24,026 nucleotides of DNA from Saccoglossus kowalevskii (lineage: Eukaryota > Hemichordata > Enteropneusta > Harrimaniidae). Shown here piece after piece: positions 358 through 14,592 of the stretch. A program made the position numbers and the translations under genes. A model generated the notes under the pieces. It saw nothing but the letters and a program-made list of their open reading frames with translations. It did no database searches and was not told the DNA's origin. The stretch spans positions 1 through 24,026 of the forward strand of contig NW_003136361.1 of the NCBI RefSeq assembly GCF_000003605.2. The letters run 5' to 3'. How positions within the stretch are numbered: position 1 is the stretch's first letter; every line of letters begins with the position of its first letter.

Positions 358-1245
358 CCAAGCTGAGCTAAGATGGAATTCTACATGTTATTGACTCAGA
401 CACGGGTGTGGCATTAGATAAATATCAGGTGCGATTTATACAGGTCTCGGACCTTCTCTAAAAAAAAAGAGTTACGTAATACACGTACGATGTGACAACA
501 CAACTCGCGATGCAAAAAACACCCAAAACTCGCAAATTCACAGTATAACATTGCTCGCCTCGGGCTCTTGCCATACCTCTCGCCTCGGACTCTTGCCAGA
601 CCTCGATCCAAAAATAGTCTGTTAATCAACAATAGCGACGTCTTAGTCATAATCTAGCTAACAGATGTTACGTCATATGATCCTAGTTGCTAACTCTATC
701 AAATATAGTAACGATATCGTTTATTAACCGAGCCTTGATATTATTTTACACGGACATTTAAAAACATATCTTCTTGCATAAATGGACAACTGGCGATAAC
801 TTTCAGCCTGAACTATATAGTTGATTAATTCAACACATGGAAATTAACTCACCATATGTTCAAACAAAAATGGTTGAATTAGACTAGGTCTTCATGAAAA
901 TTGGTCATAATTACAAATTCTAATTTTTTGATATATTCAAAAATATATATGTATATTGACATATATTGTGCCTGGATGTCTTTACAATTCGTTCCTTGTA
1001 TTTGGAGAAATAACGTTTTCCGATATCCAGCTGCCGTGAAAATCATGTTTTTAATTAGAACTGTCCTATATATAATAAAACAATTCTATCTATTTTATTT
1101 TATGTTTTTAACACTTTAGTTAGGAAAAATAAATAATTGTTCTTTTTTCACATCGACATTGTTTATTTTACATTTAGACCAAACTAAAAACATTGTGTGT
1201 GATATTACGAAACAGCCAGGGTCAGTGGTGGATGTATAATCTTAC
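358..1245. other. Non-coding flank downstream of the minus-strand glycosidase exon
   Basis: AT-rich, with no recognisable gene. Positions 554-603 hold two copies of a 25-bp unit (CTCGCCTCGG then CTCTTGCCA, with one or two differences). If the minus-strand glycosidase has the same exon structure as its paralogue, this stretch is the start of its last intron. I searched the minus strand by eye for the expected C-terminal motifs (WWIAP, FLIGD, VAPVLE, LPPGKW) and did not find them. Confidence 0.6.
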
Positions 1246-3025
1246 CAGATTTAATTGCATCATGCGCTGCTCTCAAAATAATAGGTGTCACAACTTGTTC
1301 GTGAATTTCGACCATTTTCCGAGTTATGTCAATAACCGCCGAGTTGAATTCCCATGGACATACAGAGAATTTCATGACGGGTAGGTAAGCACTCAGTTGC
1401 ACCCAGCGAATGAAAAGTTCCCTGTCAGGATCACCGTCAAGATCGCCTTGCTCCCAAGCGTCCCCACCTACCATATCCAGTAAAACAAATGGATAACCAA
1501 GAATTCCCGTCGTCAGTGCAGTTGGTATAATACTTTTGATTCCATTATTATAATTCCGGTAGGGATTTTTATTGAACGTTCGAACTAATACCGATAACTT
1601 GTGAGTTTTAGAAGCAAGGTTGACATCGATCCTGTCCCCTAGCCTGGCCACCATTTCCACGTATTTTGTACTGTATTCATTTGGACTTCGCAACGGATGA
1701 CTGTTTGTATAACTGTTAGGAAGGTAATATACTTCTCCGCCTTTACACTTAAAGGTATCAATTCCAATATCATGACGTAATTTTTCCAGTCTTCCCAGAA
1801 ACCAATCCACAGCGTCAGGGTTTGTGACGTCAAGAAGTCCTCCGATGTTATTAAAAGCCGAATTCGGCCATTTCACAAGTGCTGGCGTTTGAGATTTTCT
1901 ATCCAAAATCCAGTATTTTTTTTCCAACCCCTCTCTGAATGCATAGGAATCTATGCTGGCGAATGGGCTTATCCAGACACTCACTAAGAACCCCATACTA
2001 TGGAGATGATCTACCATTCCCCGGGGATTGGGGAACTTATCAGGCGAAAATTCGAAGTCGCCATATTCATTTGACCAGAAACTGTCTATTTCAAATTGCC
2101 CCTTAGAAAACCAGTTTGTATCTATATTATCTGCGAATTCCAATATACTACTTTCATTTATTTCCCCTGCATACGTTGGCCAAGTGGTCCAGATTGGGTA
2201 CCGGAGTAAATCCTCATTCGGCATGCCCTTGGGTAAATCAAAATGTCTCCTCGACATAAACTGGTGTGTTGTTTTTACGTCATTGCCGAGACAAACTTGG
2301 TAACTTAGTTTTAAAAAGGGCCATCCTTGATCGGAGTAAACAATCGAGTCGTATTCAGATTTTAAACACAACATCATATCATCGTTGTTCATACTGACAT
2401 GCAGCGGGATAAAGTCGTCCACTTTGATACCTACGCCACGACTATTCAGCCAATACCTTTCCAGAACGGAAGCATCGCGTAGTGTGACGTACGGTTGCAT
2501 TGACATGTGAAGGCGTTCAATGGGCCATTGCTGATACACATTAGCCGACCCACCGTACCAGTGTGAATTGGACATGTGCATACAATCCATTGGTATAACA
2601 CCACACGACAATGATGTCCATTCGATATCGTAACAATCTATCAAATCATAACGCGAATGAGTTACTGTCAACTTTATCTTGTTTGGGATTTCAACGCAAA
2701 CAGTGTCAACAATATCGTCCGACACACGGGAAGGCACGCTACATTCCTTAAAACCATCGATAAAATCTTCACCAACACCGTATGAGACTCGTAGCCTGTC
2801 GTAATGAGAGCGATTCTTAATCACAAATTGGCCCCCATCCAGAATTAGATTACCGACTATCAATGTCTGTATGCCCTTATCACTATCGATGGTGGCAGTT
2901 CGGGGAACCCCGTACTGAGTGAGGACTGAACAAGGCAGCAAATACCATATTAATATACTCAGCGTAAACATAAATAAAATGCTTAATATAACCTTCACCA
3001 GATTGAAATTCCCTGCAGGACCCAT
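1246..3025 (-). CDS. MYORG-like GH31 glycosidase homologue, exon 1 of a probable pseudoenzyme (3' partial)
   Basis: Family 31 glycoside hydrolase of the MYORG (myogenesis-regulating glycosidase) type; human MYORG is an ER-resident alpha-galactosidase. The start is the ATG at 3025-3023: upstream in frame there is only a non-ATG stretch and then a TAG. Residues ~9-30 form one hydrophobic span near the N-terminus, giving a type II signal-anchor topology with the rest lumenal. Family landmarks in order are HWYGGS, the ERYWLNSRGVG strand, FEIDSFW, YGDFEF, VSVWISPFA, GGEVYYLP, LGYPFVLLDMVGG and RELFIRW. The nucleophile motif reads FKCKGGE instead of FKFDAGE, so Lys428 replaces the catalytic Asp. 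Asn485, 57 residues later, replaces the acid/base Asp, and an active-site Asp of the IDD motif is Ser315. Catalysis by the family mechanism is therefore unlikely. The exon ends at a TCTG|GTAAG donor in the same phase and place as in the plus-strand paralogue. Reading through gives a stop at 1207-1205. The C-terminal exon is not in the window. Confidence 0.88.
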
Positions 3026-4455: not shown

Positions 4456-6202
4456 ATGGCAAACCGAATGACCGTGGTATCACTGAGCATCGCCTTGTTT
4501 GCCTTTGTTGTGTGGTATTATTGTTGTTCATCTGACGAACTACCAAACAAAACAAGACCAAAATATGGTGGTTATATCGGTGGGAGTCTACGGATCGATT
4601 ACGGCGAACGGTCGATTATTATCACAAACGCCGACCAAAGGGAGGTCGTTTACATTCGTTTGAAAAGTTCATCGGCCGAATTCAGGTCATCGCAATGCGA
4701 TGCCAACAGCTTGAGCTCGCACGAACATTGTGAACTGTTCGACGACGTTTTAGTGACATGGAATAAAAAAATACACGACCTAGCAGAATGTTATGATATT
4801 GAATACCAGGCTGTCCTCCCTGGCGCATCGCTTGTGAACTGTATTGACCTCAAAGAAGCTCATTGGTACGGTGGTAGTGGGTTCTTTGATCAGCGTTGGC
4901 CAATTGAAGCCAAGATACCGATGCAACCTTATTTATCGAGCGACGTTGGTCTTGATGATAAAAGTACGTCCAAGTTTGGTTCAATTCTAGAGCGTTACTG
5001 GGTGAATAGCCAAGGTGTTGGAGTCCATCTTGACTATCAGATTCCTTTGCATGTCAGTATTAACAACGATAACGATGACATGCTATGTCTCAAATCAGAC
5101 GGATCAGTCCCGCCGTACCAGAACTCAGCTGACAAAGATGAATCACTACGTTATCGAGTTTGTATCAGTGATAATGTCAAGAAAGTTCACCAGTTTATGG
5201 CAGGACAATATTTCGATAAGCCATACGACATACCCGATGAGCGCATGTTCCGATCCCCCGTGTGGTCCACGTGGGCACGTTATAAGATGAATATAAACCA
5301 GACGATCGTTGTCAACTACGCCCGCGAAATTCGAAAACATGGATTTTCCAATAGCCAGCTTGAAATAGACGATAAATGGTCGACAACTTATGGAGATATG
5401 GAATTCGACACAAACAAATTTCCAAAAGCCGCTTTGATGGTTTCTACGTTACAACAACTGGGTTTTAGGGTAACTGCCTGGGTGACTCCATTCGCCAATG
5501 TTGACTCCAAAGCATACGAAGTGGGATCACGGAAAGGATACTGGGTCAAAGATGCGTCTGGAAAAAAACCGGCGTTGATAAAGTGGTGGCAGGGTGAGGG
5601 CGCCCTTCTCGATGTTACCAACCATAACGCCATCCAGTGGTACGTAGACAGACTGAGAGAATTACGTCATGACGTCAGACTCAGTTCGTACAAGTTCGAT
5701 GCCGGAGAAATAAACTTTCTTCCACCGTCCTGCATTACGCAAACTCCGTTGCTACATCCGGGACAGTACACTACAAATTACGTAAAAACGGCGGCGAGCC
5801 TAGGCGATCAAATCGAGGTTCGAGCAGGACAGCAAACGCAAAGCAGGCCCATATTTGTCCGGATGTTCGACAAATTTTCGAAATGGGGTTATGATAACGG
5901 CTTGAAAACCATGATACCAACGGCACTCATGATGGGGTTGCTAGGTTACCCGTTCATCCTCCCGGACATGATTGGAGGCAATGCGTACGGGGAGGACTTC
6001 TCTAATGACGTCATCATGCCGGATCGAGAACTTTACATTAGATGGATGCAACTTACCGCTTACATGTCCGCGATGCAGTTCTCCATATCACCATGGCAAT
6101 ACGATAACGAGGTTGTTCTCATTGGGCTAAAGATGGTGAAAGTACACGAAGAAATTGTCACCCCACTTATGATAAGACTTGCCAAAGAAGCGACACAGAC
6201 AG
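4456..6202 (+). CDS. MYORG-like GH31 glycosidase, exon 1 (catalytically intact)
   Basis: First exon of a two-exon gene (join 4456-6202, 7835-8115; 675 residues, compared with about 714 in human MYORG). The start is the ATG at 4456, in a good context (A at -3, G at +4); the frame upstream has no ATG before a TGA at 4405. Residues ~5-24 are a hydrophobic signal-anchor followed by a Cys pair, so it is a type II membrane protein with a lumenal enzyme. An N-terminal beta-sandwich contains HWYGGSG from residue 136. A (beta/alpha)8 barrel follows with LEIDDKW (from 302), YGDMEF, AWVTPFANVD, the nucleophile motif YKFDAGE (Asp415), candidate acid/base Asp472 in RMFDKF, and LPDMIGGN (Asp504). The 57-residue spacing of Asp415 and Asp472 agrees with the D463/D520 pair I recall for MYORG. 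The exon ends ACAG|GTAATA in phase 1. By homology it hydrolyses alpha-linked sugars, possibly alpha-galactosides; the natural substrate is unknown. It is divergent from the catalytically altered paralogue. Confidence 0.93.
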
Positions 6203-7834: not shown

Positions 7835-8115
7835 GAGATCCTCTTATACGTCCAGTGTGGTGGATCGCCCCCACCGACGAAACCGCCTTAACTATCGACT
7901 CTGAATTTCTTATCGGAGATGACCTCCTGGTTGCTCCAGTTCTAGAGAAGGGAGCCCGGGTACGAGATATATATCTTCCACCTGGGAAATGGAAAGATGA
8001 TCTTGGTATTTTTGAAAGTGGTGTTGATGGTGGAAAGTGGTTACGCGATTACAAAGTTGAACTTGACCAAATTGCTACGTTTTCCAGGGTTCATGAACCT
8101 GGTAACAGTATTTAA
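7835..8115 (+). CDS. MYORG-like GH31 glycosidase, terminal exon (C-terminal beta domain)
   Basis: Completes the protein begun at 4456. The first two bases finish a Gly codon, giving the junction [14 protein letters not shown]. The family C-terminal motifs [14 protein letters not shown] and [10 protein letters not shown] follow, and the reading frame ends at TAA 8113-8115. In GH31 enzymes this region forms the C-terminal beta-sandwich that packs on the barrel. Phase (1+2), splice signals and family alignment all agree, so the join is secure although made by eye. Confidence 0.92.
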
Positions 8116-9054: not shown

Positions 9055-9351
9055 TTACACAACGTGTTGAACGTGGTATTCGTGAGCTCTCATTCGTAGA
9101 TTATTTATGCTCGAACTCATCATATTGTCTGTAGGAGCTAGCAATCCGTGTGACGTCATCATGTTACCGTGACTATTGGCAGGATTCGTCCAAGTGAGAT
9201 AATCCGGAGACGCGAGAGTGGAGGGCGCCGTCAACGGTGACTGTTCCAGTATATTATTATCCGCAATTGGAGCAGGATAGAGTTTTTGTCGAGCTGCCAA
9301 TACATTACGTTCATTCCGTCTGTATTTTGCACGTCTGTTCTGAAACCAGAC
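9055..9351 (-). CDS. Prrx: Prrx paired-related homeobox, exon 3 (end of homeodomain, OAR domain)
   Basis: Last coding exon, following the acceptor ACTAG at 9352-9356. It starts with the recognition-helix residues VWFQNRRAKYRRNE: homeodomain position 50 is Gln, which is paired-class Q50, and 51 is Asn. Next come DYLTW (residues 194-198), matching the DYLSW element typical of vertebrate PRRX proteins, and an OAR (aristaless) domain at about 221-239 with SINNLRMRAHEY just before the C-terminus. The stop TAA is at 9057-9055. The OAR tail is a modulator of transactivation in this family. The homeodomain is split by the intron between residues 46 and 47, the usual position for paired-class genes. 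Confidence 0.95.
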   Translation of the reverse strand, partial: VWFQNRRAKYRRNERNVLAARQKLYPAPIADNNILEQSPLTAPSTLASPDYLTWTNPANSHGNMMTSHGLLAPTDNMMSSSINNLRMRAHEYHVQHVV

Positions 9352-9947
9352 CTAGTAAATGAAAACGGGATTATTATTATTTAAAATACAACGAGAGTAA
9401 CTCAAGTGTAGATGACATGAACTGGGGTGCAGAAAGACACTTTCTTTTGTTATGATGGCACATATAAATATGTTAATCTGCGGATTTTATTTTTGTGACG
9501 TCCATTTGTGCATCAACAAACACGATATCAGGCGTGCATGTTCCAGTTATACCCCAGGGCCGGTATGCGCGCACACGCGAAACGCTGCATCTTCGACTTA
9601 CGGGAAAGAGATCTATTTAAATTGGTGTATCGACCGCTGTAAACATTGTCGTTCAAATTTACAATATCTCGTGTGAGGGCAGTCTATACTTTGACGTATA
9701 TCGTTTATTATCGCCATACTTTAGTACTCATGGTAAAGTGAAGAGCCTTTAATCTGGGTCAATCTGGGCCGTGTTCTAGCGGTACGAAACTGTTCAGTAA
9801 AGGTATTGGGATTTGATTACAATTGTAGTCATGTTTTTGAATATCACCCTCCGTCTAATGCCAAGAAAAAAATAACCGGCAAAATACAACAAGTAATATG
9901 CAGTTATGTTGGAACACAAATATATATATATAAATATAATAGCCAAC
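9352..9947 (-). other. Prrx intron 2 (splits the homeodomain)
   Basis: A 596-bp phase-0 intron, CAG|GTTGGC at the donor and TACTAG| at the acceptor. It contains a (TA)n-rich stretch near 9920-9940 next to the donor. Nothing else was recognised. Confidence 0.9.
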
Positions 9948-10132
9948 CTGCACCCTGGCTTCGCTCAGGTCAACCTTTTTAGCGAGTTCTTCTCGTACGA
10001 AGGCATCCGGGTAATGAGTTCTTTCAAATACTTTCTCCAGGGCACCAAGCTGGTTAGTAGTAAACGTTGTACGGCTCCGGCGCTGTTTTTTCGCTTTCTT
10101 ACTCTGGATCTCATCAGTATTCGTATTCTCTT
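9948..10132 (-). CDS. Prrx: Prrx paired-related homeobox, exon 2 (homeodomain helices 1-2)
   Basis: A 185-bp exon after the acceptor TTCTTTTCAG. It completes a Glu codon left open by exon 1. It encodes an acidic linker, a basic KKAKKQRR stretch (likely nuclear localisation) and homeodomain positions 1-46 (protein residues 99-144), including [20 protein letters not shown] and [10 protein letters not shown]. The [13 protein letters not shown] segment separates Prrx from Alx, Shox and other paired-like families. It ends exactly at ARVQ|. Confidence 0.95.
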
Positions 10133-10329
10133 CTGAAAAGAATTGTACAACAGGAGTTATACTTCATGAAGTGAGAGCGCCCCATAGCTATGTCGATTGA
10201 TTTAACCCTGTCGTTCTCACAGCCATCGCGTTAAAGAATTTATGACTAGTATGTGCTAATACAGTGGTTCAGGTCAGAGGATTTAATACGATTTCCAGAC
10301 TGGGTGTCACGTCCCCCAGGAAGTCATAG

Positions 10330-11882: not shown

Positions 11883-12157
11883 AGATAGAATATGTACGAA
11901 AACATGTATTTTCCAATATTTTTTGTTTATGAGGCATTTTGAGGACCAAATTGGATTATGATTTATCGTACACTAACAATCAAATGAAAACTATCTAATG
12001 CGCATGTGCGGTGATGTACGTACCAAAACAAGTATTGCACATGCGCCCTATGAACTTTCATTGTTTCATCGAATGAATACTTAGGTGTTCACATCAACGT
12101 TTTTAGTTTGTGATAAATCATAATCCAATGTGTTTATTAACATGCAGTATCAATGAA

Positions 12158-12468
12158 CAATATTCAAAACAGTATCAAACAGCAATATTCAAAACAGTAT
12201 CAAACAGCAATATTCAAAACAGTATCAAACAGCAATGTTCAAAACAGTATCAAACAGCAATATTCAAAACAGTATCAAACAGCAATGTTCAAAACAGTAT
12301 CAAACAGCAATGTTCAAAACAGTATCAAACAGCAATGTTCAAAACAATATCAAACAGCAATATTCAAAACAGTATCAAACAGCAATATTAAAACAGCATT
12401 AAACAGCAATATTCAGAACAATATCAAACAGCAATATTCAAAACAGTATCAAACAGCAATATTCAAAA
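12158..12468. repeat. 25-bp tandem repeat, about 12.4 copies
   Basis: Unit CAATATTCAAAACAGTATCAA plus ACAG, tandemly repeated with a few variants (TATT/TGTT, CAGTATC/CAATATC, one 24-bp unit). Because 25 is not a multiple of 3, each reading frame cycles through all phases. The lack of stop codons in the unit creates long Q/S/N-rich open frames that are not evidence of a gene. It lies within Prrx intron 1. Confidence 0.98.
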
Positions 12469-14510: not shown

Positions 14511-14592
14511 CTTCCTGTCAGAACACTTCGTCACTGCTAAACCTAGGTTGCCTTCCTGTCAGAACACTTCGTCACTGCTAACCCTAGGTTGC
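14511..14592. repeat. Recent 41-bp tandem duplication
   Basis: Two adjacent copies (14511-14551, 14552-14592) of a unit starting CTTCCTGTCAGAACACTTCG and ending CCTAGGTTGC, with a single difference (AAACC against AACCC). The near identity suggests a recent duplication. It lies in Prrx intron 1. Confidence 0.97.

Follow-up and report, generated by a model that had tools for sequence, protein, structure and literature searches.

Can a gene that has lost the catalytic residues of its family be retained for something other than catalysis? The question is raised by two genes resembling MYORG, a gene of brain calcification, that adjoin head to head on contig C2830 (24026 bases; this whole contig was analysed and is called the window below). 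The first-pass annotation proposed that the gene on the minus strand is a candidate pseudoenzyme beside an intact copy on the plus strand, and that it is under selection for a role other than hydrolysis, with sugar binding, the chaperoning of a partner or a decoy as candidates. Our reading is that the minus gene probably encodes a membrane-anchored pseudo-glycosidase from the MYORG branch of GH31, which purifying selection has preserved for a non-hydrolytic role, most likely binding.

Two MYORG-like genes in the window

The two genes have the following features, with introns placed from the sequence:

1246-3025, minus strand: exon 1 of the probable pseudoenzyme gene, coding for an anchor, the rest of the N-terminal region and the GH31 TIM barrel
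2936-2992, minus strand: predicted signal anchor, residues 12-30
1241-1245, minus strand: presumed splice donor GTAAG, phase 1, directly after the exon end at 1246
4456-6202, plus strand: exon 1 of the neighbouring MYORG-like gene, in which the nine pocket residues are all kept (PF01055, 100.7 bits)
7835-8115, plus strand: exon 2 of the same gene, GH31 C-terminal beta domain (PF21365, 62.8 bits), with the stop codon at 8113-8115

Exon 1 of the minus gene comprises 593 codons, all of them open, with the first Met at 3025, and lies within a stop-free frame of 627 amino acids that runs from stop to stop (3088-1205). The open frame of nearly 600 codons, the signal anchor and the splice donor that had been described for this gene are all present: the anchor is seen by hydropathy (Kyte-Doolittle 19-residue maximum mean 2.53 at residues 12-30), and the donor agrees in place and phase with that of the plus gene and of a third paralogue, L004, marking a phase-1 intron before the C-terminal domain. 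The glycosidase domain of the minus protein presumably lies on the lumenal side, behind the anchor. The plus gene reads as a complete two-exon gene, and its splice sites, on either side of an intron of 1.63 kb, give a joined frame of 675 amino acids.

The two barrels have equal scores against the Pfam model of the GH31 barrel, PF01055 (100.7 bits each; 1.3e-28 for minus exon 1, cut-off 23.5), and the two proteins are 42% identical across 567 aligned positions. The closest solved relative of both, by a wide margin, is human MYORG. The minus protein matches 7qqh at 2.1e-108 and 7qqf (human MYORG) at 1e-107, the next match being 8j53 at 5.2e-54, and the plus protein matches the human structure at E=1.8e-127. 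The minus protein shares with human MYORG (7qqf, 7qqg, 7qqh) the GH31 barrel and, by prediction, the N-terminal anchor. Next closest to it in the PDB are the GH31 alpha-galactosidases 8j50-8j53, which are considered here as matches only.

Elsewhere in the window, paired-type homeobox exons lie on the minus strand at 9055-10163, presumably in a Prrx-like gene; the frame at 9855-10163 matches the Pfam Homeodomain (2.3e-15), and the frame at 9055-9351 matches Homeodomain and OAR at 16.2 bits each, below the cut-offs. Together with the inferred introns and the MYORG relatives, the homeobox gene points to an animal genome. A tandem array at 12145-12468 (25-bp unit, 13 copies, 93% matches) is overlapped by an open frame of 146 amino acids that is probably spurious, and two direct copies of 41 bp (97% matches) occupy 14511-14592. 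A search of viral contigs gave one stretch matching a pattern and no relative.

The active site of the minus protein

In human MYORG the nucleophile is D463 and the acid/base is D520; a galactose-like ligand is contacted by R504, R517, K461, D353, D354 and W426, galactose specificity is set by W321, and D213 and R504 touch the next sugar (PMC9491548, in excerpt). Nine pocket residues were scored, W321, D353, D354, W426, K461, D463, R504, R517 and D520; D213, which pairs with D or with a gap depending on the alignment, was excluded. All nine are identical in human MYORG, the plus protein and the acidobacterial locus L012, in which, unlike in the minus protein, the catalytic residues are intact. 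In the minus gene the codons at the following pocket places have been replaced:

2081-2083, minus strand: S315 (AGT) in place of human D354, the 6-OH contact; D306 (GAT) in the plus protein
1742-1744, minus strand: K428 (AAA) in place of the nucleophile D463; D415 (GAT) in the plus protein
1619-1621, minus strand: N469 (AAC) in place of human R504, from alignment and codons
1571-1573, minus strand: N485 (AAT) in place of the acid/base D520; D472 (GAC) in the plus protein

The codons and an unambiguous register uphold the earlier observation that both catalytic Asp have been replaced, by Lys428 and Asn485. The same is true of the AGT codon of Ser315 at the Asp of the IDD motif and of the change from YDNG to YNNG, where human D528 corresponds to D480 (GAT) in the plus protein and to N493 (AAT) in the minus protein. 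W426 is replaced by F, a less certain pairing that adjoins an insertion of four residues after W425. Compared with MYORG, the minus pocket keeps four of the nine residues (W321, D353, K461, R517) and lacks the nucleophile, the acid/base, D354, W426 and R504; leaving aside the catalytic pair, four of the seven galactose contacts are kept.

The distance of 57 residues between nucleophile and acid/base, described as equal in the two proteins, is indeed so (428-485 in minus, 415-472 in plus) and recurs in the human protein (463-520). Two gap-free blocks around the catalytic places give BLOSUM62 sums of 110 and 112 in register and no sum above -24 when shifted by up to six residues either way, so no other Asp occupies these places; likewise, no different Asp was found at the catalytic positions in the alignment with MYORG. 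The minus protein has neither the Asp nucleophile nor the Asp acid/base of an active retaining alpha-galactosidase and, to judge from its sequence, is very likely without hydrolysis.

The D520N form of MYORG is a catalytically impaired variant that was used to trap substrate, and a nucleophile mutant does not support a normal myoblast phenotype (PMC9491548, in excerpt). A change of the D520N type need not by itself abolish binding. Unchanged binding of galactose by the minus protein would be unlikely, because a Lys stands at position 463 and R504, D354 and W426 are gone; in all, five of the nine contact residues are lost, which speaks against a simple retention of that binding.

MYORG-like genes in the genome

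The minus and plus proteins were used as queries on the 572-Mb assembly, and the counts obtained are lower bounds. The same MYORG-like loci, at least four, were found with both queries, together with a more distant GH31 locus. Those outside the window are:

C4069:98384-100216: L003, a single frame of 730 amino acids, with FAGGE and an E at the acid/base place
C4069:145368-148105: L004, with FDGGQ, an E at the acid/base place, and ISD
C2729:318478-319479 (-): L005, the distant GH31, whose two aligned catalytic places each carry Asp

L003 carries the barrel and the C-terminal domain within its one frame; it has D463A and D520E and has lost W321, K461, R504 and R517. L004, separated from L003 by 47 kb on the same contig, keeps D463, has D520E and has lost W321, D353, W426, K461 and R504; this copy may yet act as an enzyme of a different kind. 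R504 and D520 are changed in all three altered copies. L005, which we take to be YihQ-like, is the best of the set against the C-terminal Pfam model. A dead copy next to an intact one describes the pair itself but is too small a picture of the genome, since minus, L003 and L004, three of the four MYORG-like genes identified, have altered pockets.

For the minus gene alone, four of nine pocket residues are kept as against 67 of 98 other conserved positions, a difference that is not significant (p 0.14), and the looser set of positions at which human and plus agree gives a similar result (4/9 against 123/189, p 0.18). The stricter set yields p 0.011 for L003 and p 0.037 for L004, and the human=plus set 0.048 and 0.10. 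When the three altered paralogues are pooled, 10 of 27 pocket cells are kept, and among the invariant cells outside the pocket 210 of 294 (Fisher p 4e-4; the pooling, on the stricter set, was chosen after the single-copy results, and the cells are not independent if losses are shared).

For the alignments and the tree, 31 bacterial loci were fetched and 10 translated; seven of them are in alignments A2 and A3, and L012 alone is in the tree. The best gene tree pairs plus with minus at an SH-aLRT of 59.5 and an ultrafast bootstrap of 55, values that make this pairing tentative. The AU test rejected two of 18 topologies at 5% (trees 4 and 15). Trees that group the three altered copies together, with plus next to them, were not rejected (trees 2, 5 and 8, with AU values of 0.56, 0.17 and 0.53), and shared derived residues give no decision between the paralogue topologies.

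The missing second exon

No PF21365 domain was found after the minus barrel, and searches of the assembly with plus exon 2 and with the C-terminal Pfam model did not recover a second exon belonging to the minus gene. The model gave 13 assembly matches at E up to 1, of which 12 were above the cut-off; full-length matches to plus exon 2 were limited to the plus gene, L003 and L004. A match on contig C3102 was considered as the missing exon and rejected, as the exon beside it looks like that of another type of GH31. After the minus donor, 1.24 kb of sequence remains before the contig ends, and near this end is the following feature:

65-350, no strand: 31-bp minisatellite; the remainder of the minus gene would be on its far side

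Since the contig ends so soon after the donor and the plus intron measures 1.63 kb, exon 2 may well fall outside the contig. When the 1.2 kb past the donor was searched as DNA, the matches were to a dispersed repeat, and no adjoining contig came to light. An assembly break is the simple account of the missing exon, with exon loss as a possible alternative. The dispersed repeat (424-549) falls in the presumed minus intron; of nine matches scored, eight are to other places in the genome, at 71-80% identity.

Selection or decay

If the 3' exon were truly lost, the minus gene might be a pseudogene in early decay, its enzyme function gone. That none of the 13 matches to the C-terminal domain supplies its second exon points this way, as do the five pocket residues lost, some of them through two-base changes, and a stop met some 14 codons beyond the donor when the frame is read on. 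Against this, only 1.2 kb and a minisatellite separate the donor from the contig end, less than the 1.6 kb of the plus intron, and the frame and donor are intact. So are four cysteines that each of the four paralogues has, two of them lacking in human MYORG, and a sequon common to both neighbours (N290 in minus, N281 in plus). The protein branch and the pattern of replacement, moreover, resemble those of the plus gene, as follows.

Under simulated neutral drift, modelled by substitutions alone and without indels, the minus frame stayed stop-free in 38 of 1000 runs at 0.05 substitutions per site and in 2 of 1000 at 0.1. Protein branch lengths over 432 columns are 0.60 for minus, 0.52 for plus, 0.78 for L003 and 0.93 for L004. 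Between minus and plus, 27% of second codon positions differ, as do 70% of the 81 four-fold third positions. At the 230 sites where the two proteins differ the mean BLOSUM62 score, a measure that also takes in change on the plus branch, is +0.04, as against -0.71 +/- 0.10 under neutrality, and was reached in 0 of 300 simulations; the same measure is -0.13 for minus and L003 and -0.14 for plus and L003.

A codon test on three topologies rejected omega = 1 on the minus branch (2dlnL 13.1, 13.6 and 12.8), a result that is supportive only, with synonymous sites saturated, branch lengths at their bound and some fits unconverged. For minus, the one-ratio fit surpassed the free fit by 0.2 on the third topology. 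With plus as the control branch, 2dlnL came to 15.8 and 15.6 for two of the topologies; for one it was 0.4, the free fit there being unconverged and poorer than the fit with one ratio. Because synonymous change is saturated and some fits did not converge, the omega values are unreliable and a short recent neutral phase of the minus gene is possible.

Taken with the saturation and the missing exon in mind, the open frame, a branch length like that of plus, conservative replacements and the rejection of omega = 1 favour selection over decay, as had been argued from the open frame, and we consider an early-decay pseudogene unlikely. With the same two caveats, the minus gene shows what marks a pseudoglycosidase: its catalytic residues are lost and its frame is kept by selection.

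What the minus protein may do

As a pseudo-glycosidase the minus protein would keep the family signature without the machinery of a retaining alpha-galactosidase (D to K and D to N), and purifying selection, as suggested by the constraint tests, would retain its gene for a non-hydrolytic role. Within the secretory pathway, a glycan or protein ligand might be held either by the remodelled pocket, with W321, D353, K461 and R517 and a Lys at the anomeric position, or by the dimerisation insert. That a ligand or partner is bound is more weakly inferred than the retention of the gene for a non-hydrolytic role.

A special case that overlaps with this reading is a regulatory subunit that heterodimerises with the plus product through the MYORG insert. 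The two genes are head-to-head neighbours, and activation of a partner by a dead paralogue has a precedent in the AdoMetDC/prozyme pair of T. brucei (PMC5201418, in excerpt). The human MYORG homodimer is formed through F402, V406, L419, L422 and I429 and a bond between Y397 and E407 (PMC9491548, in excerpt). At places 397, 402, 406, 407, 419, 422 and 429 the minus protein has I, F, L, E, T, L and I, thus F, L, T, L and I at the hydrophobic interface places and I and E at those of the bond, whereas the plus protein has V, Y, S, R, K, L and E, with Y, S, K, L and E at the five hydrophobic places. Because the dimer residues are better kept in minus than in plus, pairing of the two products is less fitting, and the residues would better fit a minus homodimer or pairing with another paralogue. 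Regulation of the plus product by the minus protein is, on this comparison, likewise doubtful.

It is improbable that the minus protein is a still-active carbohydrate enzyme that works by another mechanism (substrate-assisted, or with another carboxylate) or on another substrate. Four contact residues and the E of the FDAGE motif (human E466) are kept, and L004, with its nucleophile and an E at the acid/base place, suggests that re-specification in the family is possible; but Lys and Asn occupy the catalytic places in minus, and no register shift supplies an Asp. Base-calling or assembly error, even in a fragmentary assembly of 4830 contigs, is hardly credible as the source of the replacements, as several separate codons are changed, some by two bases, in a protein with 42% identity to plus and no frame errors, and two other paralogues display the same kind of loss.

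Relation to known pseudoenzymes

Pseudo-glycosidases of other families have become parts of hormone receptors and glycan-binding proteins. In the klothos (GH1) and the chitinase-like proteins (GH18) the fold was kept, activity was lost and the protein was reused for binding (PMC7828330, in excerpt), and heparanase 2 (HPSE2) is an animal pseudoglycosidase whose fold was kept after loss of activity (PMC12406646, in excerpt). These differ from the minus protein in that none belongs to GH31 and their functions have been reported, whereas any role of the minus protein is putative. The pair of T. brucei prozyme and AdoMetDC is alike in that a dead paralogue and its active relative are present in one genome; it differs in being a decarboxylase and in that activation of the partner, shown there, is only possible for the minus protein (PMC5201418, in excerpt). 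Inactive metabolic paralogues are no rarity in themselves, since one third of the carbohydrate-metabolism paralogues identified in a Drosophila study are predicted pseudoenzymes (PMC11836677, in excerpt). For MYORG, its branch and GH31 as a whole, no report of a pseudoenzyme was found in the openly licensed literature, as covered by titles and the opening lines of abstracts and by part of the longer sets of hits.

A tentative extension is that the altered copies form a MYORG-derived branch of pseudo-glycosidases, in which an early paralogue lost R504 and D520 and diverged into several receptors or lectins of the secretory pathway, one of them, with a Lys at the nucleophile place, binding a ligand that is acidic or new in some other way. 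Paralogues with the signature of the fold but lacking the chemistry could make it possible to separate the binding or scaffolding roles of MYORG from hydrolysis.
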